DNA of 64,000 nt. It comes from Ornithodoros turicata. Taxonomy: Eukaryota > Arthropoda > Arachnida > Ixodida > Argasidae. The notes under the pieces were generated by a model. That model saw nothing but the letters and a program-made list of their open reading frames with translations, was not told the origin of the DNA and made no database searches. The position numbers and the translations under genes are program-made. The stretch covers positions 1 through 64,000 of the forward strand of contig NW_026999482.1 of NCBI RefSeq assembly GCF_037126465.1. Reading direction: 5' to 3'. Positions 34,590-64,000 of this stretch are shown piece by piece (the first letter of the stretch is position 1; each line of letters opens with the position of its first letter).

Positions 34590-35097
34590 CTATCGGATGA
34601 AGTCGGCCGCGAGGGCCATGACTTGCGCAGCCGTCACACGATCGACCTGGATAAGCAGGCGGCGGCTAGTGTTGTCCGTGGCTGCCAGCCGGTTTGTTCG
34701 GTAGACCTCAGCCACCAACTCACGAACTCTTTCGTCAACGGCGTCGTCGTTAACGAGAAGCAGGCAGCGCAGTAACCTGGCCACATCCACGAAGCCGAGG
34801 TGCCTGGGGTACGTGCAGAGAATTTCCCCGATAATCTCCAGGCACCCACCCATCACGGATGCCTGGTGCGGGGTTCCAGACATGCGAAGTCATGAGGGCT
34901 AGTAGTGCCCGGAGGCAGCCATCTGTCCTAGAGAAGTGCCGCAAGTTCCTTCGGATTTCCGTTCCGGGCGCCTATTTCGAGGTTCCACGAAATGGCCTCT
35001 AGGATGACCAACAATCGCTCAAAACGCTTGGGATGAACAAAACGCTCGGGGAGAGCGGTTGCTGACGGCGGCGAAACAGTGGCGAGAAGAATTCCAT
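34590..35097 (-). pseudogene. Copy A: unrecognised helical protein of a dispersed gene family, broken
   Basis: The family start is kept at 35097 (MEFFSPLFRRRQ, close to MEFLSRLFRRRQ in copy C). A 32-bp insertion that partly duplicates agcgttttg interrupts codon 19 onward. A short deletion after GARN shifts the frame again, and the reading then changes frame twice more. Segments from successive frames match copy B or C or continue beyond them: LLVILEAISWNLEIGARN, FSRTDGCLRALLALM, ASVMGGCLEIIGEILCTYP, VDVARLLRCLLLVNDDAVDE, and an end at LAADFIR with the stop at 34590-34592. The intact protein would be about 160 residues, leucine-rich and helical, with armadillo-like periodicity (inference). I know no function for it. 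Confidence 0.6.
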
Positions 35098-35800
35098 GAC
35101 TGTTGTTTTGATTAACCAACGTAGTGTTATAGTTTTATTTCCTCTTGTGTTCGTGTCCCATGGTCTTTCATATTCTCTGCTGTTCACAGTTAATTACATA
35201 CAACTATCAGAACTTCCCGCTATTGCAGTGATGGTTCTCACGTATAGGAATATTAGACTTTTTATAATAAAACTTTTAATTTTGATTATAATCATATTGA
35301 TTTAAAATATCTTCTTTGATTAAAATCTGCTACTCCTTCTGCTTAATTCAAAACTTGCGTGATTATCACAAATAAAAAATTGTGATACCATTTCAATGCT
35401 ATTGCATCGGATTTTTTTGTTAAGTTTTCCTCCTTCACACAGAGTCATAACATAATTCCTGACACTAATGATTTTAATAAATATATTTTCACTTGTACTT
35501 TTGTGTATGACTATCCTTTGCATGTAAACAGCCTACTGCACACCTGTTGTAGCTGGAAAGAAATTCAAGAACTAAGTCGGCCAAGGCTCAAAAATGTCGA
35601 AAGAAGTCGGCCCAGGCTCAAAAATGTGAGAGGGTAAACGCGCACGCAGCCCTCCCCCCGCCGATAAGCACGCGGACAACCCTGCGCACACGCGCCGCGC
35701 GGGGAAAAATACGCACAGGGTTCAGGGCAGGGGTGAGGGGTCCAGGTTGCTGAGTGGACCCCCGTAGTTTCTCAACCATCTTTACTACTCATGTGCTGTG
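35098..35800. other. AT-rich insertion between copy A ORF and its leader
   Basis: In copies B and C the leader runs straight into the ATG. In copy A about 700 bp of unrelated, AT-rich sequence separates the two. A GC-rich strip at 35640-35760 lies at one end. No transposon ends were defined. Confidence 0.5.
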
Positions 35801-36990
35801 TACTGATTATCTTATTGGAAATCAGAGATACGGCATGAGATAGGTAAATTGCCGAGATAAGCGACGCATCTAGCGCGGCCATCTGGTGGGAACTGTGACA
35901 ATGTCCATGATCACAACGAACGGGACAGAAAACAATCAACGGTATCGCCGCACAAAGAAAGCGAGTCTCGTTGCGGTGGTATGTTCCTAGGAATAGCTCA
36001 CATATACGGCTCCGGCGGAGACGGCGGACGACCAGTTTCCCAAGAAATCCACCTTTAGGGTTGTGTCAAGCTCCAAAGAAAAGGGGGAGTGATTGATTAT
36101 AGAAAAGTGTATTGTGTATATTCACTGGAATACAACCAAAGTGCATTGAATAATCTCAGAAATTTCAGGAGGTGCAAGAAAGACGTGTGTAAATGGGTAC
36201 AAAAAAAATGCGCTGCAAGTTAAGAACAAAATAAAGCTACACGCCGCAGTCCATTCTCGCCGATATTCATACCGACTTTTTTCAGCTGTGGTTCCGCATT
36301 GGTCGATGGAGCCTGGACGAAGTCACGGGTTTTTGCGTGGGTTTCCCTGAGAAGGCTGTCAGATTGTATGTGCCGGTACAGTTCCCTTGGAAGTCGGCCT
36401 AGGATGCACATTCCCGAGGGTGTCGGTGGTGAAGTTGACCACCACTAGAAGGGGCCGACAACGGCGAGTCCTTTCACAACCACCCTCCCACATCATCATC
36501 ATCCATTCATCTATGTTGTTGTTGTTGTTGTTGTTCACAACCACCCACAGCAGCAGGAAGGCTTCGATTTCTCGAAGTGAACACGATGTCGGTACCGAGG
36601 TTTTCAATAGGCATCTCCCTTTTTGTAAACAAATGACGTCATAGTGTTCGACAGCGCCACCAGTTTGGTAGAGCTCAAAGCTCAATGTTCGAAGCTAGAG
36701 GTGAACAAGGTCGCGCCCGAAGTCCACGGTCTTGAGGGCATTACGATGGTCCCCGAAAAGGGCGCGACCTTCGGTCCTAATTGTCTTTCAATAGGAGGCA
36801 GCGAACAAGTGTCCATTCGTGGAACTCAGCTCTCCACTTCCGAACTTTTCCGGTTTCAGTTCGTCTAGCAACGTCATGATGACGTTTATCCGGTAGAGGT
36901 TTACTGACTGCAGTCATTTCGAGAGGATAAATCTGATTCTTTCTCTTGCATCCTCTGAGCAACACCAACAACTTTGAATACACGCCTCTA
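35800..36990 (-). repeat. Copy A leader of the dispersed unit
   Basis: Colinear on the minus strand with copies B (55910-54616) and C (62595-63831). Shared blocks include atcagagatacggcatgaga, tgacaatgtcca, ggaaactggtcgtccgcc (minus), catcgaccaatg and the SINE-body-like ggtacagttcccttgg. A GTT trinucleotide run at 36511-36534 and a foreign segment at 36630-36860 are insertions relative to B and C. Confidence 0.75.
36630..36860 (+). repeat. Dispersed repeat; provides the empty site for the 56.2-kb MITE
   Basis: The sequence from aatgacgtcatagtg to gtccattcgtggaactcag is homologous in inverse orientation to 56476-56650. At the position where the 56183-56466 MITE sits, this copy runs through without it (cattcgtggaactcag), so it represents the state before insertion. 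It includes the pair ggtcgcgcccgaag and aagggcgcgacc, a hairpin. Confidence 0.75.
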
Positions 36991-37117
36991 CTTTGATACA
37001 CTTTGATGCCTTTGATACACGCCTACCGGCTCTTCAAGGACGTCTTCGACTGTTACAACAGCGCTACCTACATCGTGTATTTATACGAACCTTCGACAGT
37101 TCATCTTCGGTGGGCCT

Positions 37118-38037
37118 TTGGGTGGCAGCTTCAGCATGTCACTCAAGCACTGTTTGTTCACATTTCAGGTAATACACTATGTTTATTGCTATCGTACTGA
37201 TAACCGATATCTCTTTCTGCTACCCAACGGCCCAATGATTATGCTTTGTGATGCTTTGTCATGGTGTGACATTTCCTCACGCTTGTTGTGTTTGTCTGGG
37301 GATATCGAGTTAAATCCAGGACCCCGCACGCTTGAAGATATGGTGAAGGATGTATTGTCTGGGCAATAGGCAATGGCGAATGATATCTCGGCTATCAAAA
37401 CCAACCAGGAATGTACTAACAGCAGGCTTGAGAATCTTGATATACCAGAATTACTGCACTAGAGGCGGCTGTAGTATCAATTGCATCTTTGAACGCATCT
37501 GTGAACGAATGTAAAGTACAGATTGCTAGTTTGCAACAGTCTCTTGCTGATATGCAAAAACTCCATGACAACCTTGAGAACCGGTCACGACGCAATAATA
37601 TCGTAGTGCACGGGCTACCCGAACAGGATAAGCAAACTCCGGCAATGCTACTGCAATCTGTAACAGAGTTCCTCAGATCGAAATTAGAGTTAGAGGGTAT
37701 TGGCATCGAACGTTGTCATAGATTGGGTACCACTGTCACTCTTCGTACAAGACCGGTGATACTGAGACTTTTCGACTTCAGAGACAAACATCAAATACTG
37801 AAAATCTGCCATAAGCTCAGGGGGTCGAATGTATACGTGGATGAAGATTTTTCGTCCCGAGTACGTAATATCCGTAAAAAGCTATGGGATAGCGCCCGAG
37901 GAAATAGGTATAATGGCGACAGGGTTGTCCTGAGGTTTGATCACATGTACGTAAATGATGAAATGTACGTTTGGGACGATGGTGAAAATAAGGCAAGGAA
38001 GGTCACTAAATCTGTTCCGAAGCAAAGTCAGCGTTGA
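37118..38037 (+). pseudogene. LINE ORF1 with 2A-like motif, one stop and frameshift
   Basis: The opening frame (37118-37369) ends in a hydrophobic stretch followed by SGDIELNPGPRTLEDMVKD. GDIELNPGP at 37298-37324 satisfies the 2A ribosome-skipping consensus (D-x-E-x-N-P-G-P). A TAG at 37367-37369 closes it. The continuation is readable through about 37480, then openly from 37489 to 38037, where a coiled-coil-like region (IASLQQSLADMQKLHDNLE) is followed by NRSRRNNIVVHGLPE and an RRM/L1-ORF1-like fold with RCHRLG and RPVILRLFDFRDK. 2A-like peptides at the ORF1 N-terminus are known in some CR1/L2-type LINEs. The intact protein would be made as a cleaved leader plus an RNA chaperone (inference). 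Confidence 0.8.
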
Positions 38038-39102
38038 CAGCAACAAAATGGCAGTTTATCGCTTCTCAACATAAATGTTAGTAGTATTCTTAACAAAATT
38101 GAAAGTTTCACAGCTTTCTCTACTCATATAATCCTCATGTTGTGGCATTTACCAAAACGTGGCTACATGAAGCAATATTAGATTGTGAGGTGTCCCCGCC
38201 GGAGTATAACATTATTCGAGAGGACAGAAAAACTAGAGATGGTAGTATTGCTTTGTTTTTTTGTTTTTGTTTTTTTTAAGACGTACACCTTGTTGTGTTA
38301 CCGGAATTAGATAATCTGGAATGTTTATTCTGTAAAGTGTATAATGTCTCTTCTGTTATCTGTACTTTATATAGACCTCCTGGATCTTCTGTAAATTACT
38401 TTCCTGTAATCAAGGATTCTATCATATGTCATCATCTAGCAAATTGTAAACTCGTTTTGCTCGGTGACTTTAATTTCCCACATGTCAACTGGAGTACTTT
38501 GTTAACTGGGGATCATGACAAAATAGAGGGTGAATCTTTAATCGACCTAAGTATTGCTCTTGATTTAGTGCAGATTGTTAGAGAGCCCACTAGAACTGCT
38601 CCCGAACGTCAGGGAACAATTTTGGATTTAGTGTTTGTGAGTAATAATCTATTTACGAGAGGGTGCTTGTACGAGATAATACATGGGCTGTCTGACCATA
38701 ATGCTGCGCTCGTTAGCATTAACATCAATGTTCCTCCAGCGCCAACCGTCCGAATACCCATCCTTGACTTCGATAATGCCGCCTCAACTGCAATTATAGA
38801 TGAACTAAGCTTTTCCTTCGCCTCCTTTTGTGGTCTTGCACATACTTATGACGCTGAGTCTTTGTATACTACATTCCAAAACATAATTAAGAAGTGCATA
38901 TCTTTATTTGTCTCGTTGAAATTCGAAAGAAGGACACCATCACAGCCGTGGTACACACGGGAAATTTTGCAGCTTAAGAGGCGAATTGCGAGGATGAGAG
39001 TGCGTCTGGTTGTTAGTACCAATCACATCCTAAGATGTGAATTCCATAATTTAAAATCTCAGCTTAAGCGTAAATTGAGAGAAGCTAAATTAGCGTATGA
39101 GA

Positions 39103-39630
39103 GAGAGAGAGAGAAAGAAAGAAATACATGATGACGATGATATGGGGGTGACTTCCGCTCATTGAGCAGAATGCTACCCCATTGCTATTGGGGAAAAATG
39201 AGAATATTGTGATGAGGATGATGCCGACGACGCTGACAGGGTTTTAGAGAGAGTCGATCAGGCCGGTAGTTTGCAGGAATTTGATGAAGGGTCGCAAGAC
39301 TGACATCTGCTTTCGTGTGTCCCATGGTCCCAAAATGAGTCTGAGGTCAAGGGGTCGGCTGTCAATTCGCGCAAAGTCCTTTGCCAACAAGTGACGCTCC
39401 CTCCTATAAGTGGCACATGCGATGATCACATGGTCCGCGGTCGCTGGCACACCACACTCCGGGCACAAGGGACTACTGGCACACCCTATCTGGTAACGGT
39501 AGTACGGTGTGAAGGCAACATTCAGCCGTAAGCGATGTAGGAGGGACTTAATGAGGCGCTTCGAAACCGATACCGATGGTGGTATGTAGAGACTAACAAC
39601 GGTAAGAGTGATCTTGCCGAGACGAACCTT
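39103..39630 (-). mobile_element. 5'-truncated LINE tail with 15-bp target duplication
   Basis: Exact 15-mer AATTAGCGTATGAGA flanks it at 39088-39102 and 39631-39645. On the minus strand it encodes the C-terminus of a LINE ORF2 (CPECGVPATADHVIIACATY, a C-x2-C...H...C zinc knuckle, stop at about 39246), followed by a 3' UTR and a tail of TTTC and TC repeats (ga-rich on the plus strand at 39101-39121). It landed within the endonuclease/reverse transcriptase linker of the CR1/L2-type LINE, so it is younger than that LINE. Confidence 0.88.
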
Positions 39631-40497
39631 AATTAGCGTATGAGATTTCTTTGTCGCAGCTCATAAAAACGAACCCTAAGAAACTCTGGCCGTCCATTCT
39701 GCCCGAAAATGATCGGACTAGGTCATTTCTGATCAATGACTACCTGGAATATGATCCTCTTGTTATTGCTACTGACTTTAACAACCAGTTTGTTACTACG
39801 TTTCGCACGACGATGGAATTTCTCCAGAATTTCATGTCACTTCTGAATTACCTGTGCTTGAGGATACCGAGATTGATTCATCAGGAATATTCAGTCTACT
39901 GTTGAAACTGGATACGAGGAAGAGCAGTGGTCCAGATTGTGTGACCAATATATTTTAATATCGGTTCGCTGAATGGGCATCTAAATACCTGCAAATCATC
40001 TTTGAGAAATCTTTAAATACAGGAGTCGTCCCCACAGCATGGAAAGTAGCAAAAGTAATTCTTATACACAAGACTGGTAGCAAACAACTGATGGCTAACT
40101 ACAGACCTATCTCATTAACTTCAACATCGTGCAAAGGCTTTGAACATATTCTATGTAAGCACATTACTGATTATTTAGAAACACATTCAATTTTATCTTC
40201 TCGTCAGCACGGTTTTCGCAGGGGATTTTCAACCGTGACACAACTGTTGGAATTCACTCACTTTCTTGCATCTGCGATTAATGATAAAACCCAAGTTGAC
40301 GCTATCTTCATTGATGTGAATAAAGCCTTTGATAAGGTATGCCATATATGCTAAGCTGATTCTAAAACTAAAAGCATTAATTAGGAATGATAGGATTGTG
40401 TACTGGATCGAGAACTATCTTTCATTGCGAACCCAGTTTGTTTCGTTTGATGGACATGACTCGACCAAATCTAGCGTCTTGTCGGGTGTCCCCCAGG

Positions 40498-40739
40498 GAG
40501 AGAGAGAGAGAGAAATACATGATGACGATGATATGGGGATGACTTCCGTTCATTGAGCAGAATGCTACCCCACTGCTATTGGGGGAAAATGAGAGGATGG
40601 TGATGAGGATGATGCTGACGACGCTGACAGGGTTTTAGAGAGAGTCGATCAGGCCGGTAGTTTGCAGGAATTTGATGAAGGGTCGTAAGACGGACATCTG
40701 CTTTCGTGTGTCCCATGGTCCCAAAATGAGTGCTAGGGC
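40498..40739 (-). mobile_element. Second, shorter tail of the same LINE family
   Basis: The sequence from the GA-rich tail to caaaatgag is nearly identical to 39103-39345 (aatacatgatgacgatgatatgggg, ttttagagagagtcgatcag). It interrupts the GVPQG motif of the host LINE; reading resumes at 40740 with QGSVL. The flanks share only CAGG/CAAGG, so the target duplication is short or decayed. Truncation removes the zinc-knuckle coding part. Confidence 0.82.
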
Positions 40740-41934
40740 CAAGGATCTGTGCTATGGCCACTGCTCTTTCTGTTATTCATAAATGATGTTGTCAGTGAGG
40801 TCTCCTCAGATATAAGATTGTATTCTAGAGTGAAATCAGTAGATGATCAAGTCAATCTTAACCAGTCACTTTTGATGTTTCATAACTGGTGTAAAAGGTG
40901 GCAACTAGATATTAACTTTTCTAAATGCGCTGTGCTGTCTTTTACCAACAGGAAGATCCCTCTTTCATTTCCTTACATACTTGACTGTCATGCAATACGT
41001 AAGGCTGATACGTATAAATATCTGGGTCTGCATTTTTCTTCCAACCTAAACTGGAAAACCCATGTCAAAATTGTTTCGTCTAATGCTCTGCAGAAGCTTG
41101 GCTACTTGAAACGAACGTTAAAATTGGCCTCCACGGATACCAAGCTCCTTGCATACAAAACCTTAGTACTTCCAATTCTGGAGTACGCTTCTGTCGTTTG
41201 GGACCCTCATTTCAATAGTGACATTAATGTTCTGGAATCAATTCAAAGTAAGGCAGTTAGATTTCTTATGAAACGTTACGACAGTCAGTTTTCTCCATCT
41301 TCCGCACTGAGTTCATTGGGTCTGGTTCCACTGCGGCAGGGGCGTGCCCTTGAAAGGTTAAAATTTTTGCATTTAATAGCTCATAAACAGATTAACATAC
41401 GCCATGAACTTCGTCTAGTCTTCGGAACTCACACCCATTGAACATTGTTCCTATGCGTTCACGTATAGATGTTTTTAAATATAGTTTTTTTCCTCATACA
41501 GTTGATGAATGGAATAGGTTACCTGGTGCTATAGGGGAATTACCTGTGAAAGACTTCTGTAACCAAGCATGCCTGCTCCTGCTATAGCCTCATAGAGGCT
41601 GCAGTATTTGAAATAAATAAATAAATAAATTTATCTGGAAGGTGCTATATGCAGTAATTGCGGTTAATCTCATTTTAAACTTTAAATGCAGTGCAATGTG
41701 AGCAAGGGAGCTCAAAGTTTCTGTACACATTGCCCTTTATTCCTATGCAATTCAGGGGGGGGGATATGTTTAATGCAAAGTAAGAAAAAAGAGAAGGGAA
41801 CGGTTAGCCACGGTGTGGGCTTGCTATTCCCTAATGTTTTCAAGCAAACAAAAGAAGACAGCTGGGATACAGAAAATTATGAAAAAATACAGAAGAAACG
41901 GCTCCTTCACTAATCGTTGCGCATAGGACGCATC

Positions 41935-42165
41935 AGAGAATGCCAAGGAGTTTAGATTCCCGAAGTAATCGTGTCAGCGCAGACGTGACTTCAGCGTGCT
42001 GGGTAGGGCCAAGTAGCAGCGCGAGGGAAAGCTCTCGGTAGCCTAGATGAGCAGGGAGACTCGATCGGTGATCTTCGTACCGCTGGCAGGCAATGAGAAT
42101 GTGTGGCACATCGGCTTCTACGTTGCACGTTGGGCAAAGAGGTGATGGGTGGGGTGCTGATTCAT
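41935..42165 (-). pseudogene. Another LINE C-terminal zinc-knuckle fragment
   Basis: On the minus strand the sequence reads LCPTCNVEADVPHILIACQRYED and continues with a LALLLGPT-like segment, the same C-x2-C...H...C layout as the tail at 39.1 kb but clearly diverged. CPTC is encoded at about 42125-42136. No start, stop or target duplication was found, and it is not part of a longer frame. It lies 300 bp beyond the end of the CR1/L2-type LINE. Confidence 0.65.
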
Positions 42166-43034
42166 CTTAAGTTCAGCTCTATTGCAGTACACCTGAGATA
42201 TAGTAGTGGAGTCCGCATGTGGAATGTAGCAAGGAGTTTTTCCTTGTGCGCTATTGCTCACTTATGTTCTCATATGACCTCACCAACTAATTAAGCAGGG
42301 TATCGAGAGTGCATGCCTCCATGAAGAAAGTCATCCTTGTGGAACTACGTAATAGCCTTTGTCTGAATATAAACAAAAATCTCACGAATACAACGTTGTT
42401 GTGATGAATTATTCGACAACAGAGAACTTTTGAGAAAAGATCCCCAGAATATCTGTGCTTATACAATGCACAAAAACTGCCAGTGATTGGTCATGGTTAT
42501 GTACCTGCAATAGTTAACCTCACTACTAATGATGCTTCCAAAAGGTCTCCGGCCTCCTTAGCACACTTGCTATGTAGTGTCTTTTGCAGAAGCAGCCCTA
42601 CAAAAGCAGATCTACGGTTACCAGACGATAAATCAAAATTGAAGTAACCCGCTGTCTTTTTGAATGTTTTCCAATGCAGCAGTAGGCAGTATTAATGTAG
42701 CAGTATTAACACTGACGAACTGTTTTTCATTGGTCACTTCTGCTGTGGCATGCTGAAATATGCAAAAACACACATTTCAGTTTCATCTATGCTTCCATGT
42801 GAATCCAAGGAAAATGGGGACCTCGTTCGCTTTTGTTCCACTATTTTTCATAATATGGGAACGCAAAATCTGCTCAAATTTCGTGTTCAGTGTAGTGCAA
42901 CAACATGCAATATTTCCATGCCTCGATAGTATCCACACAACACCCGCAAGACGCTAATGCACTTTGTGATCAGTCCTATCGCACGGTTAAATGTCTCTGG
43001 AGACGCTGCAAAGAGATGATAGATACTGGGATGG
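42166..43034. other. Intergenic
   Basis: AT-rich sequence without recognisable genes or repeats, apart from the edge of the TTAA element that follows. Confidence 0.35.
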
Positions 43035-50356: not shown

Positions 50357-50393
50357 AAAAAACTAAAGACCTTCAGGGTTGCCTGCCTCGATA

Positions 50394-50532: not shown

Positions 50533-51010
50533 TTCTGTGAAAGATGAAAGACACTGAAAAGGTTAGCCAGCTGTACACTCTTAAAAATGAACTTCACCGC
50601 ATAGCACGCTCCTAGCCAACCATAATCTCGAATGATATCGTCACCTTCCCTGATTTGTTGAAAACGGGGGGCGTACGCCTTTTTTGTGACAATTATGAAC
50701 AGCATAAGTGTCACAAAAAGGCGTACGCCTCCCGTTTTCAACAAATCGGGGAAGATAACGATATCATTCGAGACTATGGTTGGCTAGGAGCGTGCTATGC
50801 GGCGAAGTTCATTTTTAAGAGTGTAGGATTCGAACCCACATCTTGTAGGTTTGCGGTTCAGGTCCCTACCAATTGGGCTAAGCTGACACACCTCGCCTAC
50901 GACTTCCATGGGTTCGTCATCTGAAGGGAAAACCCAACCACTCTCTCTCTCTCTCTCACTCATTCTCCTTTCACTCTTACATTTTTGCTCACTCGTACGC
51001 ACATTCATAC
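50533..51010 (-). mobile_element. tRNA-derived SINE interrupted by a foldback MITE
   Basis: It is homologous to the SINE at 58.02-58.26 kb. On the minus strand it has an A-box-like TTAGCCCAATTGG and B box GGTTCGAATCC, then the body. A 248-bp MITE (50576-50823) is inserted directly beside the B box at a TA that is single in the uninterrupted copy. A CT microsatellite (50940-50962) lies in the tRNA-distal part. Confidence 0.8.
50576..50823. mobile_element. Foldback MITE, copy 1, inserted at TA
   Basis: The two halves are inverted copies of each other almost end to end: CACTCTTAAAAATGAAC at the left, GTTCATTTTTAAGAGTG at the right, with further pairing through agcacgctcctagccaacca and ggcgtacgcc. 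TA flanks on both sides (50574-50575 and 50824-50825). TA duplication suggests Tc1/mariner-type mobilisation. A second copy is at 53778-54014. Confidence 0.9.
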
Positions 51011-51038
51011 GACGGGATCGACACTAGCGGCAACTGCT

Positions 51039-51750: not shown

Positions 51751-51756
51751 CTCAAT

Positions 51757-51885
51757 GGTGACGTGCCTGTTTTGCTAAAGCTATGTGTGACTACGCCTGT
51801 CTTTAAACAAGTTAGCGTGATGCTATTGAAGAATTGTCGTCCAATATCTATTGTGCCGGCATCGGCCTTAGTTTTGACAAAAATA
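51757..51885 (+). pseudogene. Short reverse transcriptase fragment of a LINE
   Basis: The segment VTTPVFKQ followed by NCRPISIVPASALVLTKI matches the conserved entry to LINE reverse transcriptase (V-T-P-V-F-K then N-Y-R-P-I-S). Nothing before or after it continues the domain; a 300-bp unassigned GC-rich piece follows. Confidence 0.55.
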
Positions 51886-53777: not shown

Positions 53778-54014
53778 CACTGTTAAAACAGAGCTTCACC
53801 ACATAGCACGCTCCTAGCCAACCATCATACCGAATAATATCATTCTGTGTCCTGATTTGTTCAAAACAGGGGGGAGGCGCCTACACGGGACAAGATAATC
53901 TGTCCCAGATAGGCGCCTCCTCCCATTTTCAACCAATCAATGCACAGAATGATGTCGTTCGGAATGATGATTGGCTAGGAGAGTGCACTGCGGTGAAGTT
54001 CTGTTTTAACAGTG
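53778..54014. mobile_element. Foldback MITE, copy 2
   Basis: It starts CACTGTTAAAACAGAGCTTC and ends GAAGTTCTGTTTTAACAGTG, with the same inner agcacgctcctagccaacca arm as the 50.6-kb copy. The central sequence differs (ggaggcgcctacacgg against ggcgtacgcc) but keeps the same self-complementary layout. The flanks are tg on both sides rather than TA. Confidence 0.82.
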
Positions 54015-54408
54015 TGCGTGCAGGATGTAAATGTAATGTTCAAAATGAACGTCGTCCAATGCATATAATAAAGCGCGGCTTCGTGCCTTTGCTCTGAGAA
54101 CATTTAAGAATTGTTCGTTCGCGACGCTTCTTAAATAGTACTCCAGCACATGACACGATCGAGCCGAATTACCGCGCAAAGTGATACCGTTGTCCCTCTT
54201 TATTTGAGGAGAAAGCATGTCAGGAAAAGGCGTACGCTTCCAACTCTCTCGAAATCAAGACAGAGAAAGATGTCAACCGGAATAATGCGGTGACATGCGA
54301 TCAATCTGCGTTCTAAGAGCGTAAGAACGCAATACCAGATAAAATGCAAGCCGACAGCCCCAAATCTTGGCTATGTTGAAAGGTTGGTACTCCGACTTTG
54401 TGACATCG
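54015..54408. other. Intergenic
   Basis: No gene or repeat recognised between the foldback MITE and copy B of the dispersed unit. Confidence 0.3.
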
Positions 54409-54615
54409 TCAAAACGAACGGAAGGCAAATGAAGGCAACTTAAATTGGATGCAGCCCTCCGACCGGGAAAACTGAGGTAGGTTTCTCCGGATTTCCGGAA
54501 ACACATTCCGGGTGCCTATTTGGAGGTTCCAGGATATGGCCTCTAGAATGACTAGCAGGGCGCTTGGATGTAGCGGGATCTGGCGGCGGCCAAAAAATCG
54601 CGACAAAGATTCCAT
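54409..54615 (-). pseudogene. Copy B: 5' part of the unrecognised dispersed gene family
   Basis: The ATG at 54615 opens MESLSRFFGRRQ, then LLVILEAISWNLQIGTRNVF, PEIRRNLPQFSRSEGC. Homology to copies A and C stops at about 54430, and the frame closes at 54409 after an unrelated end. The frame also stays open upstream of the ATG to 54720, with a matching but frameshifted region in copy C. Truncation makes it unlikely to work. The whole family shares the unusual spacing W-N-L-x2-G-x-R-N. Confidence 0.6.
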
Positions 54616-55910
54616 GTCTGATCGGGACCAGAGTTGGGAGACAGTAAATGGTTCGTTAGGGTAAACTGTACCCAGTACTTTGTCATCGTTTCTTGGATGA
54701 CTCTCACTCACTAATGTCAACGTCTGGAGTCCCTGCTTGTAGTATCAAACGTGTGCGATACCGAAGAGATATAAATAAGACTAGACATTAAGAACAACCG
54801 CTACCTGTGCAGTGTACGGATTATTTTGTTTGACATTAGAGACACGACATAAGATAGGTAAACTACTGAGGTATACGACATGGCTAGCACCGCCATCTGG
54901 CGGCAAAGGAGGTAACGATGACAATGTCCATAAACTGTTCTCAACGAAGAGGACGCAAAACAATCGATGGTATCGTCGCACAAGGAAAGCGAGTTTCATT
55001 GCGCTCGTTCACAGGTTCCTATAGGGATAGTTCACACGTCCGGCTCTGGCGGGGACTGCGAACAACCAGTTTCCCAAGGGTGTTTACCAAGAGTTTACTA
55101 AGTATGTGGTGTTCAAAGTTTGAAAAAAGGGGGCGAATGGGGGGGGGGGGAAGATTGATTCTGGAAACGTGTATTCAGTATTCAGATATTCACTGGTATA
55201 TATAGCCCAATTGTCTTGAGCAATCTCAGAAATTTCAGGACGTGCAAGAAACAGGGGCGTAAAGACTGGGCAGGGAAATCCTTGCGGGGAAAAACGGTAA
55301 GGCGAGACGCTTAATTGTCGCAGTTGTTCACACTGCCTCTTTTGGGCCGTTGGTCCATACGCGGCCCTCATTGGTCGATGGAGTTTGGGCGACGTCACGG
55401 CTTTGCATGGGTTTTCCACAGGAGTTTTCAGATCATATATGCCTGCACAGTTCCCTTGGGAGGCGGCCTAGGACGCACATTCCCCCAGGGCGTCACTCGT
55501 GAAGTTGACCACCACTATGAGGCCGACAACGGCGAGACCTTTCACAACCAGTCACGGCAGCAGGAAGGCTTCAAATCCTCGAAGTGAACACGACGTCAGT
55601 ACCAGTCGGCACTTTCAATTCGCTATACCCATTTCGAGAGAACAAGCCTGATTCTTTCTTGTGTAGCCTCCGAGCAGCACCAACAACTTTGGAGGCGCGC
55701 TTTTCCGGCCGAACATACGGGGGCGTAATTGCGGATGGCTCATGAAACTCATCACAGCCGACGGAGTGTCCTCATTGGCTGGCCCTCCCGCTTTGTTGCG
55801 AAAGGAAGTTGTAGTTTTCTTTCGTCTTTTTAATATCAACAGCAACTTTATTTTAATGTGATGAATGGGGAGTTTCAACGCCAGGGGCGATAGTCTTCCT
55901 CATTGCTGAT
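54616..55910 (-). repeat. Copy B leader of the dispersed unit
   Basis: Colinear with copies A and C on the minus strand: gaaactccccattcatcac and ttaaaataaagtt at the outer end, then the SINE-body-like block, ccatcgaccaatgagg, ctatccctataggaacctg, cagatggcggtgctagcca, gactccagacgttgac, gggtacagtttaccc, and the ATG. Identity to copy C is high by eye across about 1.25 kb. Homopolymer C runs (55139-55150 on the plus strand as G) differ in length between copies. Confidence 0.82.
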
Positions 55911-56082
55911 GATGATGTAGGGGATGAACCCCCTTCGCACTAAGTACTCCCCCTCCAAGAAACAATGTTGGCGGCAGCGTTTCTGACACAACGGAATACA
56001 TTACATTCACAAGGAAAGAAGTCCCGATCGGTAAACGCAGCCACGTTTCCGTGAGGTAAATAATGTCGTAGCGTGAACACAT
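55900..56082 (-). pseudogene. LINE endonuclease fragment
   Basis: The minus-strand frame begins with SRYDIIYLTETWL, the conserved Glu-containing block of APE-type LINE endonuclease (I-x2-L-T-E-T-W-L). It lacks everything downstream and merges with a 3'-tail-like sequence holding AATAAA that joins copy B. It is a deletion remnant, likely of a family other than the 37-kb LINE. Confidence 0.55.
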
Positions 56083-56182
56083 CAGCTTTAGAGGAGATAA
56101 ACCTCTACTCCAGAAACGTCGTCATGACGGTGGTAGACAGACTGAAACTGAAGCAAGTTGGAATGAGAAGGCTGGGTTCCAC

Positions 56183-56466
56183 TAGAGTCACTAAATAGGG
56201 AGCAGGGTAGAGACACTGAGCCACACCGGCAAGCGCGACCGCCATCTTGAGTCCGCAGCGGCGGCGTCGCCTCGAAATGGAACGCCATTCTCCCCCTTCT
56301 CCGCCGGAGAACGGCGCGCCAGCTCGCGACCGAGGAAACCGGTTTTGGATGGAGGGGACTCAACATGGACGGCGCGTTCTTCGAAGGGGAAACCACGTGA
56401 CACGATCAGACCAATCGCGGACACGGAACGGCGGCTCCGGCGCGGTAAAGGAATGCGATGACTCTA
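56183..56466. mobile_element. hAT-like MITE, copy 2, with 8-bp target duplication
   Basis: It starts tagagtcactaaat and ends gcgatgactcta. GGTTCCAC flanks it exactly on both sides (56175-56182 and 56467-56474). It is homologous throughout to 12784-13087. The homologous sequence at 36850 lacks the insert, so the boundaries are fixed by an empty site. Confidence 0.9.
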
Positions 56467-56474
56467 GGTTCCAC

Positions 56475-56655
56475 GAATAGACACTCGTTCGCTGCCTCCT
56501 GTTGAAAGAAAAGTAGGACCGACGGTCGCGTCCCTTTCAGGGATCGTCGTAATTTCCTCAAGACTGCGGCCTTCGGGCGCGACCTTGTTCGCCCCCTAGC
56601 CTCCAGCGGATAGTTCGCACTCGCGTGCTATGACGTCATTTGTTTGTTTTGTTTT
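56475..56655 (-). repeat. Dispersed repeat, host of the 56.2-kb MITE
   Basis: Homologous in inverse orientation to 36630-36860, with ggtcgcgcccgaag, a hairpin-forming cgcgacc and tgacgtcatag. Class unknown. Confidence 0.7.
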
Positions 56656-58019
56656 GTTTAGAAATACTACTGGCCGCCCGTTGGAGACCCAAGTAGGAGT
56701 GTGCAAAATATACAGAAATTACAAAGAGCAGGGTTATAGAAAGGTACAACTTCAACATAAACCTCCGTGCATACAAGTTTGGATACGTCTTGAGATAGAA
56801 ATACAAGTGCAACGTGCATAAACGGAGTTTATCGACTGAAACGGAGAGGTCTATTATTCTGCGATTCGCAAACAACAAAATTTTGTCGCATTTTGCGAAA
56901 CTCGTTTTGCCAAAAAAGAAATAGAAAGTGTATGCAAAAATGGAAAGGACATGTGCAAGATAGAAGAATAGAGAATGGTGAACCGCAACGAGAAGAGAGA
57001 ACAATGAGAACAAAGATCAACGAGCACCCGACTAGACCTAGGTGCAACGCAGTTTTTCTCCTGCCGCGCAACACTCTTCTACAGCGACGGCGACGCCGCC
57101 AGTTCTGCTGACACTGCAACCAGCCGCGGCTTTACATTTTGGTTCATTGATCTCGACATTCTGTGAAATTCATGAATGTCCTGAAAAATTAGGAACAAGC
57201 TCTGTCTTCATCGTCTGAACTACACTGCCCCCTCGGAAAAGTGCGTATTAACTATATACTCCCCCACTGTAGCTCAGCCAGCCCCTGCGAAGGAGTCGCC
57301 TAGGACTCTACGCGGTAAGGTGAGCTCACACTGCAGCGGCCAGGGACTCTGTTCTACAGAGTAAGGAAGGGAAGGTGATCTCTCGGACTCACACAGTATT
57401 ACCGTACATTCTGGTCATCTGGATGCTCTTGTAATGGGATAAGAAGTGTAGAGGAAAGGGGTCCACATTGAAACAGTCAATTTTTCTGGCCCACTTCCAG
57501 CGCAAGCAGCTCCACCTTTCGATGTTCCACACGTCCCTTGCGTAGAGCGAATCACCCCCCCCCCCCCACGCCCCCCGAGACAACGAACGGTGGTGGCCGG
57601 CATCGGAAGCAAATTTTCTGTGACTACACTTGCTGTCCGTGTGCACAAGAAGCACCGAAGTTGGCATCTGCTTCTATAGGTTCTTCTTTCATAGTCGTAA
57701 ATTCCCAAACACTGGTAGCTTATCTGGCGTGTAGCGTGTCTTGCCTACCTCGGCGGAAAAATAGCGTTCACCAGTGCCGCTAGGCGGCGAATTTAAATCA
57801 CGTGCTTCAATTTGCAAATGTAAAGTGCACATCGCAGAGAAGGGCAAGACACAGCGAACATGGAGCATATCAAATCATCTGACGTACACGAATAACTGGC
57901 GCCCAAATACTGTTGTGGATGACGCTATTGCTGTCTGGTGTGAAGCATACGAAGCGAACCAGACATGGGTTCAGTGCAAGGTATGTATAGGCTGGTCACA
58001 TTGTAGTAACAAAAACCTA
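56656..58019. other. Intergenic
   Basis: No gene is recognised; a 91-codon plus-strand frame (57774-58049) has no known motif. A C run of about 14 lies at 57546-57559. Confidence 0.35.
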
Positions 58020-58260
58020 TATTATATGATGAAAGATGAAAGTCACTGAAAAGGTTAGCCAGCTGTAGGGATCGAACCCACATCTTCTGGATTGCCGGTC
58101 CAGGGCTCTACCAATTGAGCTAAGCTAACACGCCTCTCCAGCGACTTTCGGGGTGCGTCATCTGAAGGGACGACAAACCAGCCACTCACTCTCACTCACC
58201 CTCCTTTCACTCTTACATTTTTGCTCACTCATACGCACATTCATACGACGGAAATCGACG
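58020..58260 (-). mobile_element. tRNA-derived SINE, uninterrupted copy
   Basis: On the minus strand a tRNA-like head with A box TTAGCTCAATTGG and B box GGTTCGATCC is followed by a body that ends gaaagatgaaagtcactgaa on the plus strand. The copy at 50.5-51.0 kb shows the same organisation. CT- and tcac-rich sequence lies on the plus-strand right side, beyond the tRNA head. Confidence 0.8.
58058..58129 (-). other. Intact tRNA-like cloverleaf heading the SINE
   Basis: 72 bases fold fully by eye: acceptor GTTAGCT/AGCTGGC (two G-T pairs), D stem GCTC/GAGC, anticodon stem CTGGA/TCCAG, T stem GTGGG/CCTAC. The anticodon loop CCGGCAA would place GGC (Ala) at 34-36 but has C in place of the invariant T33. 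With the shared flank in the second copy, it is read as a SINE head, not a functional tRNA gene. Confidence 0.6.
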
Positions 58261-58929
58261 CATAGACACATAGCACACGCACGACAGATAGACCTGTTTC
58301 GAAATACTGCCACCTAGCGGCCGTGGGCAGCTGCGGCCGCCATGTTGCGGGAGACGGAGCGCATCAGACACACACACGCGCCTACGGGCGGCGAGAACGC
58401 TGTACGCCATTCAATGCTCGCCGCATGATATATGTGCCGTTTTTTCTTGTCATGTCTGTGGAAATGTTCCTCGTGGCTGGATGGGTGACCGATCTATCTA
58501 AGTTGCCAAAACTTTCGGAAGAAGGCATGGCGTGGTTTGGCTTGTCACAGCGAAATTTCACAAGTTACAACTTTTACATTGACCAATTTGTACACAAGGG
58601 CAGTGAAGATAGTAGTTGGCTCGCAGCATGCGTGTTCACATTTCGGAGAATTCAGATTTTGACAGGAGCATATTTGGGATGCTTTACACTATGAACAGTG
58701 AGTTAATTCGTTCGTTCGTTCGTTCTTCCTTACAAACAAACAAAGAAACATTATTATATACAGGCAAGGTATGTACATCAAGCCATCGTGCTACGATGGT
58801 AAGAAAATGGATGAAAAACGAAATTACCCCTACGTGTCGCTGATCTGTTTGGCTCAGATGCACTGTTCGTGATGTCGTGTGTGCCTTTGGTCTGCTGTGG
58901 CATAGTTGCTTCACAGAAGCTCATCTTTA
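58261..58929. other. Intergenic
   Basis: No gene recognised. The 123-codon plus-strand frame at 58323 includes KLSEEGMAWFGLSQRNF and ITS-like hydrophobic parts but no known domain. A ttcg run is at 58709-58726. Confidence 0.3.
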
Positions 58930-59460
58930 CTACAGGGCAGCAACTACTTTTTGTAGTTTAACTACTAGTGTAACTACTTCATAGCACCAATAGTAAAACT
59001 ACTTTGTAACTACTGCCGACGCTGTTTGACTACATTTTTAACTACCTCGGCGTCTTGTGCGCGTTGCTATACAGGGTGTCCGCTGTCCAGCCTAAAGTAC
59101 ACCGAACGTTTAAACAGCATGATGCGCTCTACATCAAGCAGAACTGCTGGAGTATTCGATGCCCTGTGTTTTAATCGCTTTTTTGCTTAATTATTCAGGC
59201 ATTTATATTGCCTCATATAATTACGTTTTCAAGCTTTTTAGTGACGACCCGAGGTGTAAATTAGAAATCTGTAGAGCGTGCCGAGAAACAGCAAGTGCAA
59301 CCCTTCATTTACCCTACATTTTTCTGTAGTTAACTACAGAAAAATGTAGTTTAACGTTATAATTACATTCCCAGAGATAGCTTCTAACAATTGTTTAACT
59401 ACTATGCAGTAGTTTCTCTAGTTGTTTAACTACATGTAGCTAACCACTTCCCATCACCGT
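58930..59460. repeat. Degenerate ACTACTT/GTAACTAC repeat
   Basis: Short units such as taactactt, gtagttaactac and tgtttaactac recur irregularly, including the palindrome gtagttaactac at about 59326. The style is related to the GTAACT family at 30.9 kb, but the unit is different. Around 59075 acagggtgtccgctgtcc looks like a DNA-transposon end. Confidence 0.5.
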
Positions 59461-60149
59461 CCACAACCCTGAGCCCCCAACACTGGGGTTTTTAACTTTT
59501 TTATGGTGTTCTGCCAACCCGCAGAAGTTTTATAGCTGTATCACTAAACAGAAACCACGAGAACAACAACCAAGCTATCGGGCAAAAGGCAATTTCAGGG
59601 ACACGTGGGTCGATTTTGTTGTGTAGCCTAAGCTGACACATTTTGATTTTCAAACACTGTTGCCTATATTTTCGAATTGTCAAGTACAAAACAAATAAAC
59701 ACTTGAAAAGAAAGCTTCAAATGTGTACTTTTTTACATAATTAATTTACACATTTCAACGAAGAGAAAAGGAAAGATAAATTCACAACAGTTCATAGGTT
59801 GATTTAGTCTGCAGTCTGTTGCTGCGTCGGCTTCTCCCGCAACATGGCCGGCGCAGCTCAGTTCGACGAAAGCGCAACAGGTGGCGCTCATTTTTGAAAA
59901 GGGTCTATAGCCTGTTCCTACGCCCGTAGCCGTGGTCTTTTCGCCATCACCACCACCACGTACTAGAGGTTAGGGAATATTTAGATTCTTTTTGTTTATT
60001 TATGTATTAATTTATACTATGTATGTATACTATCATTACTGTATTTATACTATTTATGTATTTATTTATTTATTTATGCCACAGTCTCCAGATGTACTCA
60101 CAGTGCAGCTATTGCAGTGCTGAAATGCCTACCCACCCTTCCACCCAAG
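59461..60149. other. Intergenic
   Basis: No gene seen. A tatttattt-type microsatellite spans about 60050-60078. Confidence 0.35.
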
Positions 60150-60420
60150 TACTATAGGATAATAATAATAATTGGAGGTTTACGTCACGAGACAACTCAG
60201 ACCATGAGCGACGCCACAGCCGTCAGTCTGTGTATTGCTTTTTGCCCACCTGAGGGTTCTTTAACGTGCGATGAAAGCTCATTACACGGCACCCCGTATT
60301 TAACGTCCCTCGCGGAAGAAGGCGTGTCTAAGCAACTTGTACTCTGCCGCCAAGTTGCTGGCGTCCTCGGCCGGGTTCGAACACGCGATCTCGTGATCAG
60401 AAACACTATAGGGGTAATTT
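60150..60420 (+). mobile_element. SINE-like element of the ACGTC...TTCTTTAACGTG type
   Basis: After an aat microsatellite come ggaggtttacgtcacgagac, ccacctgagggttctttaacgtgcgatg and gccgggttcgaacacgcgatctcgtg. This succession is a widespread conserved SINE-like block in arthropod and mollusc genomes, and its end carries a B-box-like GGTTCGAAC. The superfamily (possibly MetaSINE-like) is from memory of the pattern only. Confidence 0.55.
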
Positions 60421-60469
60421 TGTCATATTGGGAAATTTGTCAGGCATATAATTTGGAATATAATTTGTC

Positions 60470-60912
60470 AGGCATATAGGAAACATGGTTGTCTAAAAGC
60501 AGCACTCCTTGGTTTATCCCGTCTCAAATCTCCAGGCGTTGCAAGGCTGTGGCGGCCCATGGACGACGATGAAGATGTGCTTGTGCTGGCACGCGCCACT
60601 GCGCCTGCCAGCCCGTTCTACCGGCACCATCCTATAGCGTGAGGCCACGTCAATCTGCCCGCTGGGACATTCCATCATCGCCGATCAGGACTCATGTAGG
60701 GGAATGCCATCGTCCTCTACATTTGGTGACCCGAACAACGAACACCACGTTCGGCGTACTTTGGCTCAATACCATCCCAAATTTCTGCAAGCCCACCTCC
60801 GAAGCCATCTCCGAAGGTACGGCGCATCATTCTACCGAGGAACCGCTAAGCGACTAAGTCAATCCACTGCGGCTCCACTCATCGCAACGCTCATCTGGGC
60901 GCCGCCGCCACA
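60470..60912 (+). other. Possible LTR end and primer-binding site remnant
   Basis: ctctacatttggtgacccgaac at about 60715-60737 has an LTR-like CA end followed by TGGTGACCCGAA, the same motif as in front of the gag at 22.9 kb. The 170 bases after it read without a recognisable gag. The CACTA element follows at once and may interrupt this remnant. Confidence 0.35.
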
Positions 60913-62191
60913 CACTCTAAATCGTTTTACACCTTAAAGGGTGTAAATCAAAATGTTCATGGCGCACACCTTTTAAGGTGTATTTTAACACCCTCGTGGC
61001 AATTGGGGTGTAAAGGGTGTAACGCCGAATAAAACTGCTGTGTTTGTGGCAATATGCTGGTAACTGTGTATTCACAATTACCAGCATATCGCGTATAATC
61101 ACATTGAGGTCCATATATGTATGCACATCAAGGTGATTAAATATGTGTGTAAACATGCACAGCCGACATACAGACAATCATGTATGGCAATGAAGCATGG
61201 CAGCTGTATATAGCTTTTCGTGAAATTGTAGACCTTCTCATGAGCAGGCACCTCCCCCATATGCAAGTTCATTACTCAGAACGTTGCATTTATTCGTTTC
61301 TTCAAGGCTTTGCAGTGTTGTACCCACAAATACCTAACCCCTGTAAAATGCATTACGTTGTTCATTATCCGCGGCTCATCAGGATGTTTGGTCCTCTCCT
61401 ATCTGTATGGTTGTACGCGTTTCAAAGGGAAACACTAGCATTTTAAAGATGTTGCTAGAAAAACTCGACATTTTAAGAACATAACCCTTTCATTAGCAAG
61501 AAGACATCAATTTTATCAAATGTATGCGTGGTTGCAGCCCTTCATCAGAAATGCCACATTACTGATGGTTCCAAAGAGATAATACTTCAACATGCCCCAG
61601 AAGCAATTCAGAGTTACATTCATGACCGTGACATTCACGCAGAATATATAGTCTCTGTGAAAAGTGCAGTTGATAATGATAACACATTTGCTGTTGGCTG
61701 TGTTGTTGCCAAACAATCTTCCGAGGAGGACTTACCTGTGTTCGTTGAGATTGCAGGCATACATGTGTACCATTTTTCTCATACAAACATTAACTACAGT
61801 TGAGTATGATGAGCACTATCATGTATTTGTTCTATCTTGCAATGAGGAGCAACGTGTTTTAGAAATTTAAGCACTATCTCAACAGATCTTCTAAATCTGC
61901 ATGCATTACCAGATGGTAGACGTGTTGTAAATAAAGGCCAAACACTTTTGTAGTGTAACTTCCTGTTCCCTGTTGTTGTATATATTTACTTTTGTTCATG
62001 TGAACGAAAATAAACATACTCCCTTTCTACACCCAGGCGACACACTTATCACCATATTTCACCTGAGGGCGTAGTACTCCATTGTTACACCCTCAGGAAC
62101 TTCCAAAACAAAGTTGTAGGGTGTGAAAGGGGTGTGATCTTTGGTAATACACCTATTTTACACATTTAAAGGTGTGAAACGATTTAGAGTG
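60913..62191 (+). mobile_element. CACTA/EnSpm transposon derivative
   Basis: The left end is CACTCTAAATCGTTTTACAC and the right end is its inverse with one mismatch over the first 20 bases, so it has the diagnostic CACT termini. Subterminal repeats of the ggtgtaa/acaccct type are clustered within 130 bp at both ends (60935-61022, 62028-62180), a second CACTA hallmark. The dinucleotide CA flanks both ends. At 1,279 bp with only part of a transposase, it is an internally deleted copy. Confidence 0.88.
61180..61930 (+). pseudogene. CACTA-type transposase C-terminal remnant (DUF4218-like)
   Basis: The first piece (61180-61446) contains YIAFREIVDLL, then MHYVVHYPRLIRMFGPL and a W..AFQRE segment, the pattern that in CACTA-type transposases follows the catalytic core. 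Pieces in other frames continue it (KTRHFKNITLSLARRHQF at about 61460-61520). A later frame (61528-61803) has a beta-rich pattern. A final piece YDEHYHVFVLS leads to a close near 61930. Several frameshifts and stops break it. The catalytic DDE core is absent, so the element cannot move on its own. Confidence 0.65.
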
Positions 62192-62594
62192 CAAGTGCAA
62201 AGTTGGTGCTGCAGCCACCAAAAAGAATTTCCGAGCTCTTGTACCTGAAACTTTCTACGAAGCGGACACCTTCAGGCCTAACGAAACGGGTAACCCAAGA
62301 TACACTCCACGTGGAAAGTTTAGAACGCACCATCTGGAACACTGAGGGGGAGGGGGGGAGAGGTTGCAACATCTGTCCGACATTTCAGTGAAAAACTTGC
62401 TAATCACCGGGTGAATGAAAGGACAGAAGTACAAGAGACTGGGCCTAATCTTTTCCGCGCCACCTGAGCTATTGACAGACAAGAGAGCTGTGCTATTTGG
62501 GAGTGTATTCCGTTGTCACTGAAACTCGGCTGCCACCGGTACGCTTTTTGGAGTCTTGAGAACTTCCGGTGGAGGGGGCTCATTTCCCACATCA
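62192..62594. other. Intergenic
   Basis: No gene recognised between the CACTA element and copy C of the dispersed unit. A G-rich run is at 62346-62360. Confidence 0.3.
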
Positions 62595-63831
62595 GCAGCA
62601 GCAATGGGGCAGAGTATTGCTCCGGGCGATGAAACTCCCCATTCATCCTCTTAAAATAAAGTTCATGTTAAAATTTAAAAAGTAAAGAACAAGAAGAAAC
62701 CTGCGTCTCCTCTCAACAAATCGGGACGGACAATGATGACACACCGTCGGCTGTGACCCATCCGCAATTACGCACCCCGCACGTGCCTTGAGAGTTGTTG
62801 GTCCTGCTCCGAGACTGCAAAAGAATTAATCAGACTCGTCATCACGAAATGGGTGCAGTGAATTGAAAGCGTGGAGCGGTACCGACATCGTGTTCACATC
62901 GAGAATTCAAAGCCTTCCTTCTGCTGTGGGTGGTTGTGAAAGGCCTCGCCGTTATCGACCTCGTAGAGGTAAGAAGTTTCACGGCTGGCGCACTGGGGGA
63001 ATGTGCGTCCTGTGACGCTTCCCAAGGGAACTGTGCAGGCATATATGAGCTGAGAACTTCTGAGGCAAACCCAGGCATAAAGCCGTGACCTCGCCCAAGC
63101 TCCATCGACCAATGAGTAGCCACAAAAGAGACAATGTGAACAACTGCGACAATGCAGCAGCGACTCGCCATACCGTTGTCCTCCGCAGGGATTTCCCTGC
63201 ACCGCTTTTTTTTCAGCCCCTGTTTCTTGCACCCCCTGAAATCTCTAAGATTGCTCAATAGAGTTCGACTATATACCAGTGGATACACCCAATACACGTT
63301 TCCCTAATCGAGCTCTCCTCCCGCCCCTTTTTCTTTTTTTGAGCTTGGTACACCCCTAGAGGTGGATATCTTGGGAAACTGGTCGTCTACCGTGCTCGCC
63401 GGAGCCGTATGTGTGAACTATCCCTAGGAACATGCGAACGCAACGACACTCCCTTTCTTTGTGCGATGATACCATTGTTTTGTGTCCCCTCCTTGGGAAC
63501 AGTTTATGGACAGTGTCATCGTTCACTCTAGATGGCGGTGCTAGCTGTGTTTTTATCTCAGTAATTTATCTATCTTATGCCGTATCTCTGATTTCTTATA
63601 AAATAATCAGTACACTGCACAGGCATCAGTTGTTTTTAATCTCTCGTCTTATTTATATGTCTTCGGTAACACATATGTCTATAATGTTGATATTTGTTCG
63701 ATACGAAAAGCAGAGACTCCAGACGTTGAAACTAGTGAGTGACAGTAACCCAAGAAACGATGATAACGTACCGGGTACAGTTTACCCTAAAAAAACGATT
63801 TACTTCCTGCTAACTCCGGGTCCTATCCGAC
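62595..63831 (+). repeat. Copy C leader of the dispersed unit
   Basis: Colinear with copies A and B: aaactccccattcatcctct and aaaataaagtt, the SINE-body-like block around 63000-63060 (gggaactgtgcaggcatata), ccatcgaccaatgag, ggaaactggtcgtctacc, gaactatccctaggaacatg, gactccagacgttgaaac, gggtacagtttaccc, then the ATG. One extra base in an A run near 63790 breaks the frame that stays open upstream of the ATG in copy B, which argues that the upstream part is not translated. Confidence 0.82.
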
Positions 63832-64000
63832 ATGGAATTCCTCTCGCGACTCTTCCGCCGCCGCCAGCCCCCGCTCCCCACGCCCGTATTGGTAGTTATC
63901 CTAGAGGCCATTTCCTGGAACCTCGATATGGGTGCCCGGAACGTATTTCCGGAAATTCGGAGGAATCTCCGCCACTTTTCCAGGACACAGGGCTGCCTCC
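63832..64000 (+). CDS. Copy C: unrecognised helical protein, partial at window end
   Basis: The ATG at 63832 opens 56 codons without interruption to the window edge: MEFLSRLFRRRQ, PVLVVILEAISWNLDMGARN, VFPEIRRNLRHFSRTQGCL. It is the best-kept of the three copies, and substitutions relative to A and B are mostly conservative. A short basic N-terminus (RLFRRRQ) is followed by amphipathic, leucine-rich helices. Copy A indicates an expected full length of about 160 residues. The family is not one I recognise. Whether this copy is a host gene or part of a mobile unit cannot be decided here. Confidence 0.55.
   Translation, partial: MEFLSRLFRRRQPPLPTPVLVVILEAISWNLDMGARNVFPEIRRNLRHFSRTQGCL

Follow-up and report, generated by a model that had tools for sequence, protein, structure and literature searches.

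A conserved block predicted to fold as an HDV-like ribozyme lies 3′ of the stop codon in a gene family of Ornithodoros turicata

The structure and distribution of the hepatitis delta virus (HDV)-like class of self-cleaving ribozymes have been described (PMC8256844, PMC4908430). According to the portions of the literature available to us, animal members have been described chiefly from retrotransposon 5′ ends and from scattered genomic loci, with one in a CPEB3 intron in mammals. The ribozymes of retrotransposons usually lie in the 5′ untranslated region (UTR) only (PMC11620745), and R2 ribozymes have been described in animals, including one tick (PMC3774820). Inhibition of the CPEB3 ribozyme (RF00622) raises the output of its gene (PMC10919898), and a hammerhead ribozyme is present in the 3′ UTR of Clec2 genes (PMC11620745). 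Here we describe a gene family of Ornithodoros turicata in which a block downstream of the stop codon is predicted to fold as an HDV-like ribozyme. We started from a stretch of 64,000 nucleotides (NW_026999482.1, positions 1 to 64,000; C200:1-64000, hereafter the window), which holds three copies of the gene, A, B and C, and searched the assembly it comes from (GCF_037126465.1; 1.071 Gb, 379 contigs).

By a pseudoknot descriptor and the pairing counts given below, the predicted element has the same parts as the ribozymes of non-long terminal repeat (non-LTR) retrotransposons (R2, R4, RTE and L1Tc), namely helices P1 to P4, P1.1, loop L3, the cytosine in J4/2 and a predicted cut at the first nucleotide of P1. 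Unlike them, it follows the stop codon of genes in an ordinary-looking family, and a DNA search of the assembly found it nowhere else. Like the CPEB3 ribozyme, it would be an HDV-like element within a host gene (PMC10919898), but the CPEB3 ribozyme is intronic and belongs to a single gene, whereas the element described here follows the stop codon in about two dozen paralogues. The family would resemble the Clec2 genes, whose 3′ UTRs carry a self-cleaving ribozyme (PMC11620745); theirs is a hammerhead, whereas the one here has a predicted HDV-like fold, and the comparison is between the ribozymes. In the literature that we searched, which left most subscription papers outside, we found no report of an animal gene family with an HDV-like ribozyme in its 3′ UTR.

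A tblastn search of the assembly gave 32 matches to the family, which consists of single-exon open reading frames (ORFs). Once three probable haplotig copies (two on C200, one on C145) are merged, there are 24 loci that include the 3′ end, of which 18 lie on contig C8, two on C6 and one each on C13, C4, C3 and C1. The ORF is intact in 19, broken in four and unclear in one. We aligned 21 full-length open sequences representing the 19 intact loci, L010 and L019 being probable haplotig twins. The protein is exactly 160 residues long in 19 of these, in agreement with the length of about 160 given in a first-pass annotation of the window, and the other two have 167 and 173. Sequence comparisons indicate that the ORF is coding and that purifying selection maintains the open frames. 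The median ratio of nonsynonymous to synonymous divergence (dN/dS) is 0.156 (range 0.066-0.469; the 118 of 153 pairs with 0.05<dS<1.5, drawn from 18 of the 21 sequences after exclusion of L010, L019 and L022 as near-duplicates), and for B and C it is 0.22 in the coding frame, compared with 1.0 and 2.8 in the two alternative frames. Within the ORF, differences concentrate at third codon positions in all three pairs, with counts by position of 12/6/22 for A and B, 7/3/18 for A and C and 14/6/23 for B and C (p = 0.007, 0.002 and 0.006); in scans for codon periodicity the segment on the ORF gave the lowest p in each pair, and the C-terminal frame of A has a coding-like GC content per codon position of 0.66/0.42/0.72. 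A coding function for the leader upstream was also considered and rejected; its lowest periodicity p values were 0.030 (B and C, at 63580, among 45 windows) and 0.048 (A and B, at 62740, among 34 windows).

The protein had not been recognised in the first-pass annotation, and our searches gave the same result. Large sequence databases returned 266 candidates with none at E≤0.01 and 3,730 candidates with none at E≤1; none of the 21 members scored above the Pfam cut-off, the best E in a PDB search was 0.64, and viral and prokaryote collections held no protein relative. Weak Pfam matches to Arena_nucleocap (0.02), Herpes_IE68 (0.0064) and Stonustoxin_helical (0.028) are below the cut-off and were read as chance. 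The family is an orphan with respect to the collections searched, because these may contain few relatives of the host; the endonuclease of a neighbouring retrotransposon found a best match there of only 35% identity. The first-pass description of the protein as helical is matched by a single-sequence model of the C-terminal 97 residues of A, which is all-helical, but at a mean predicted local distance difference test (pLDDT) score of 55 this model lends the claim little weight and was too poor for a fold search. Deep nodes of the protein tree were poorly supported, and the tree was not used.

Downstream of the ORF, we observed a block of ~80 nucleotides (nt), about 90-120 nt after the stop codon, whose conservation across 22 aligned copies exceeds that of the ORF itself. 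At C8:14744 it is displaced further 3′ by an insert resembling a short interspersed element (SINE), and at C8:8970 much of P4 is missing. Even at C1:105154, where protein identity to copy C is 39%, the block has 82% nucleotide identity. In all 148 distant pairs the ribozyme core shows less divergence than synonymous sites do (median 0.087 versus 0.568), and in 143 of the 148 it also falls below nonsynonymous sites. Conservation extends past the ribozyme to a spacer (CTGCCTTGTGGTCGTA) and to a hairpin 3′ of P2. A genome-wide DNA search with 191 bp around the block found 27 places, and all 27 (every candidate was scored) lie directly 3′ of a family ORF, a placement unlike that of the R2 or L1Tc ribozymes at the 5′ end of a reverse transcriptase (RT)-coding element. 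The tblastn matches that lack the block are B and its C8 allele, which are cut off earlier, and partial matches from A, the A allele and the C13 copy. By these searches, the block is present after every family ORF that extends that far and nowhere else in the DNA search of the assembly.

The block fits a predicted HDV-like double pseudoknot with P1, P2, P3, P1.1, P4 and a catalytic C in J4/2. P1 is GGGAGC/GCUCCU, 6 bp with a leading G·U wobble; P2 is CCUGC/GCAGG, P3 is GCC/GGC, L3 is UCCACGC, P1.1 is GG, P4 is CUCCGGAGG/UCUCCGGAG, and J4/2 is ACGAAU or ACUAAU in most copies. The column of the catalytic C and the P1.1 GG are invariant (23/23), and L3 reads TCCACGC in 20 of 23 copies, the others being TCAACGC in C8:11793, TCCACGT in C8:7622 and TCCACAC in C8:8970. 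In copy A, the predicted fold occupies 34402-34481 on the minus strand, with P1 at 34481-34476/34446-34441, P2 at 34465-34461/34406-34402, P3 from 34459, P4 from 34437 and J4/2 at about 34413-34408. Across 22 distinct rows, 98.0% of cells pair in the pseudoknot, compared to 95.3% in shuffles and 37-62% when partners are slid. Changes on both sides of a pair occur in 13 cells against a shuffle mean of 3.3, and covariation is 0.111 against 0.060; neither value was reached in 500 shuffles. The block of copy C has a folding z of -3.95.

A pseudoknot descriptor matched 17 of the 22 loci and, in the window, only copy A, whereas the background was two matches in 349.4 Mb of shuffled sequence and none in 63.2 Mb of shuffled ribozyme regions. 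Scans of the short stretch with Rfam gave matches to HDV-fold families as well, below their gathering scores. RF00094 (HDV_ribozyme) ranks first in copy A, over its full length, with 23.7 bits (E 0.21), and it scores 20.9 bits in L010 and 23.6 in L026, two divergent copies. C1:105154 (L035) matches RF02682 (HDV-F-prausnitzii) at 21.4 bits, RF01787 (drz-agam-1) at 18.0 and RF00622, the CPEB3 family, at 12.9.

We also compared the state of the fold with that of the ORF. All three broken-ORF loci, C8:11793, C8:8970 and C13:3698, fail the descriptor, compared to two of the 19 other loci (Fisher 0.006 over 22 loci; 0.018 with A and C added). Those two are C8:14744, which fails because its insert altered P1, and C8:23425, where the ORF start is unclear and the failure is due to a mismatch or bulge.

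We put a probability of about two in three on the following reading. A, B and C are members of a gene family encoding the 160-residue protein, and the predicted HDV-like element after the stop codon would cut the message, whose 3′ end would likely be fixed in this way and lack an ordinary poly(A) tail. One transcript would carry both the ORF and the element, and cleavage is predicted, in line with the chemistry established for the class, immediately before the first base of P1 (between A and GGG), at a distance of about 90-120 nt from the stop codon. For copy C the predicted cut falls before C200:64405, 90 nt after the stop; for copy A it falls between 34482 and 34481, at about 108 nt. Such a cut would separate the coding message from all downstream RNA and leave an upstream product with a 2′,3′-cyclic phosphate end. 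Trimming of this kind may set protein output, most likely lowering or gating it; the trimmed end may be the working end of the message or a brake. Neither AATAAA nor ATTAAA was found between stop codon and ribozyme at any of the 22 loci. A broader version, in which a whole animal gene family forms its mRNA 3′ ends by a built-in HDV-like ribozyme in place of cleavage and polyadenylation, tail-less and with a 2′,3′-cyclic phosphate ~100 nt past the stop, and in which the death of the ribozyme is the death of the gene, can be put forward tentatively, and we regard it as rather doubtful.

Several observations weigh against cleavage of the message by an HDV-like element. At least one poly(A) hexamer lies downstream in 13 of the 22 loci (~1.4 kb fetched), although at no common position; by our estimate the hexamer counts are about at chance level, and they therefore lend a tail-less message little weight. 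In 18 of 22 copies the block has one frame without stops, although this frame is shifted by indels in the copies at C6, C1 and C8:23425. The ribozyme of A looks intact despite its broken ORF, and the DNA search that ties the block to the family is blind to strongly diverged ribozymes. On the structural side, the number of pairs with changes on both sides is four against 2.2 in shuffles and was equalled by 33 of 500; the covariation stems from P1 and P4, because most columns of P2 and P3 never vary, and related sequences can outdo such shuffles without any structure. P2 has 5 bp here, below the roughly 7 bp usual in a class where, as far as the available source text goes, P1 has 6-7 bp and P2 about 7 (PMC4908430). 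The L3 pattern of the descriptor was picked after these sequences and the Rfam consensus had been viewed. All Rfam scores lie below the gathering thresholds (50 for RF00094, 44 for RF02682, 37 for RF01787 and 35 for RF00622), unrelated families appeared in the same short scans at similar or lower E (mir-9214 0.065, ZNFX1-AS1_2 0.078), and a 20.8-kb Rfam scan of six loci gave no HDV-fold family at E≤1.

The failure to reach any Rfam gathering score, together with the conserved spacer and the hairpin 3′ of P2, which go beyond the ribozyme, would suit a retired, non-cleaving descendant of a ribozyme that has been kept as a protein-bound structured element of the 3′ UTR, serving localisation, stability or translation control. 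We consider this unlikely, as the pattern of the catalytic core is retained (the P1.1 GG, L3, the invariant C of J4/2 and compensatory changes in P1 and P4) and would be unneeded for a mere protein site. The same sub-gathering scores, with unrelated families at similar E-values, could also mean that the block is an unrelated structured RNA, such as a new non-coding RNA, that resembles HDV by chance. The matches of three divergent copies include four different HDV-fold families, and the descriptor hardly ever matches shuffled sequence, which makes such a coincidence highly improbable.

Two further explanations concern the origin of the unit. Non-LTR retrotransposons typically carry HDV-like ribozymes, as far as the available texts show (PMC3774820, PMC11620745), and the family has about two dozen copies, dispersed and of either orientation, as might be expected of a mobile element whose ribozyme is an RNA-processing device, as in R2 or L1Tc. 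A mobile unit had also been proposed in the first-pass annotation, and our data do not support it because the ends of the copies vary, B has neither terminal inverted repeats nor a clear target-site duplication, the ORFs are intact in 19 of 24 loci and under selection (dN/dS 0.16), and 18 of the 24 loci cluster on C8. Most copies were compared over ~1.5-kb flanks, where their ends differ from pair to pair; at B, where target duplications were searched for, there was no inverted repeat of at least 8 bp and direct matches reached 7 bp only. In addition, the ribozyme is placed after the ORF, the family protein matches no known polymerase or other Pfam family, and in L041, the locus scanned for RT (7.9 kb fetched), no frame exceeds 113 residues from the ribozyme to +3.2 kb. 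An element of this sort therefore appears improbable. A small ORF followed by an HDV-like fold also recalls delta-like agents, which are described in the available source text as having a circular genome of ~1.7 kb with an ORF and in some cases HDV-like ribozymes (PMC8256844). Descent from a captured RNA agent of this type is barely credible to us, given that the descriptor found no ribozyme on the opposite strand at any of the 22 loci with ~1.5-kb flanks and that none of the 21 members belongs to a Pfam family above cut-off.

The extent of shared upstream DNA bears on how the family spread. About 300-500 bp upstream of the ATG is common to most pairs of C8 paralogues, only about 55 bp at C8:14744, and about 120-340 bp in the copies on C3, C4 and C6. 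Recent near-copies aside, common stretches of at least 0.9 kb were observed in pairs among B, C, C13:3698, C8:2424 and C8:3426 with its twin; with C8:14744 the similarity takes the form of separated pieces, as it does between A and the two copies B and C. These comparisons agree with the first-pass suggestion that the gene family spread together with its 5′ region, and the leader may consist of promoter, 5′ UTR and flanking DNA copied by block duplication. Two head-to-head gene pairs, L028/L021 (C8:14.769/14.770 Mb) and L024/L025 (C8:15.142/15.143 Mb), have about 0.9 kb between their ATGs. The pairs at 14.77 and 15.14 Mb are 89-90% identical to one another over the fetched length, which indicates that several copies arose as DNA blocks. 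Overall, the family probably expanded by duplication of DNA, for the most part within C8. A simple segmental duplication of one block was rejected, since the 24 loci lie on six contigs besides haplotigs. Individual pairs are nevertheless explained by block duplication.

Within the window, the comparisons identify C as the intact copy, A as a pseudogene whose ribozyme still matches the fold, and B as a copy cut off before the ribozyme. The window itself appears to be an alternate haplotig of the C8 region at 13.46-13.50 Mb, and copy C is 98% identical to C8:13497078-13498485. On the plus strand, the leader or 5′ flanking region of C runs from 62504 to 63831; its ATG-proximal ~300-500 bp is the part common to most C8 paralogues, while the remainder is shared with few. 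The intact 160-residue ORF occupies C200:63832-64311, of which the first 56 codons (63832-64000) fall in the window, and its TAG stop lies beyond the window end at C200:64312-64314. The leader of C contains at about 62929-63075 the relic of an old dispersed, tRNA-SINE-like repeat (compare 27361-27447); 18 of 54 genome-search rows match about that stretch only, four further rows match a shorter part of it, and the matches fall on many contigs.

Copy B lies on the minus strand, with its leader at 54616-56000, as aligned to C, and the first ~56 codons of its ORF at 54447-54615; family similarity stops within the ORF at 54447, and no ribozyme was found there. B (54447-56000, minus) and C (62504-64000, plus) align over 1,598 columns at 73.6% identity and 966 bits, compared with a top score of 31 bits in 50 dinucleotide shuffles of C, 49 of which gave any match. 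This bears out the colinear leader and ORF start that the first-pass annotation had seen in all three copies. Its unit of leader plus ORF holds only in part: both are common to A, B and C, but A is interrupted, B is cut off and the block shared by A and C is longer.

Copy A, also on the minus strand, has a discontinuous leader made up of a distal piece at 36907-36989 and a main piece at 35792-36597, with ~309 bp of another element between them (36598-36906), a repeat also present at 56098-56603. The final ~210 bp of leader before the ATG is replaced by an unrelated stretch of 693 bp (35099-35791). Its ORF remnant (34590-35097, TAG at 34590-34592) is frameshifted by a 26-bp insertion, an 8-bp deletion and one more frameshift. 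The similarity of A and C reaches about +3.2 kb past the ATG and includes a ~260-bp tandem array. In A this array of ~260-280-bp units lies at 32604-34152 on the minus strand; arrays homologous between loci follow the ribozyme 3′ of C (C200, about 64730-66660) and of the C8 paralogue L041 (about 970-2420), and several other family copies have similar tandem arrays. An RT-like ORF set, Penelope-like by eye, is inserted 3′ of C on the minus strand at C200:68440-70090 (L040 about 4440-6090) and splits the A-C similarity.

The rest of the window holds further repeats. A GC-rich 171-bp satellite occupies 916-9466 with about 50 copies at 97% match. Pieces of a non-LTR retrotransposon, which we take to be CR1/L2-like, lie at 37016-41438 on the plus strand with matches to Exo_endo_phos_2 and RVT_1; the frame upstream of the first long ORF reads ...LLCLSGDIELNPGP, presumably a 2A-like ribosome-skipping motif. 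A palindromic ~247-bp miniature inverted-repeat transposable element (MITE) sits within a tRNA-SINE copy (50575-50822, with 53778-54015), and another copy of this SINE (58030-58259) has the empty site, with a TA duplication. A second MITE, presumably hAT-like, is found at 56174-56454 and 12775-13055, with ends TAGAGTCA/TGACTCTA and an 8-bp target duplication GGTTCCAC; the former copy is nested in another repeat, an uninterrupted relative of which lies inside copy A. The sole Rfam gathering match in the window is a tRNA at 58057-58129 on the minus strand, which here forms a SINE head. The tail of a related SINE (compare 27254-27447) is the relic in the leader of A, B and C. The style of the repeats and one PF02098 match, with two stops inside, suit a tick.

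In conclusion, if the reading of a message-cutting HDV-like element is true, this family would be a natural case of a self-cutting RNA that regulates host messages or forms their ends. Copies of one gene that are intact, decayed (C8:11793, C8:8970 and C13:3698) or interrupted by an insert (C8:14744) provide a ready comparison set. Because about two dozen paralogues would carry a ribozyme just after the stop codon, they would make it possible to test what benefit an mRNA ribozyme brings to a cell, a question that the single-gene cases leave open.

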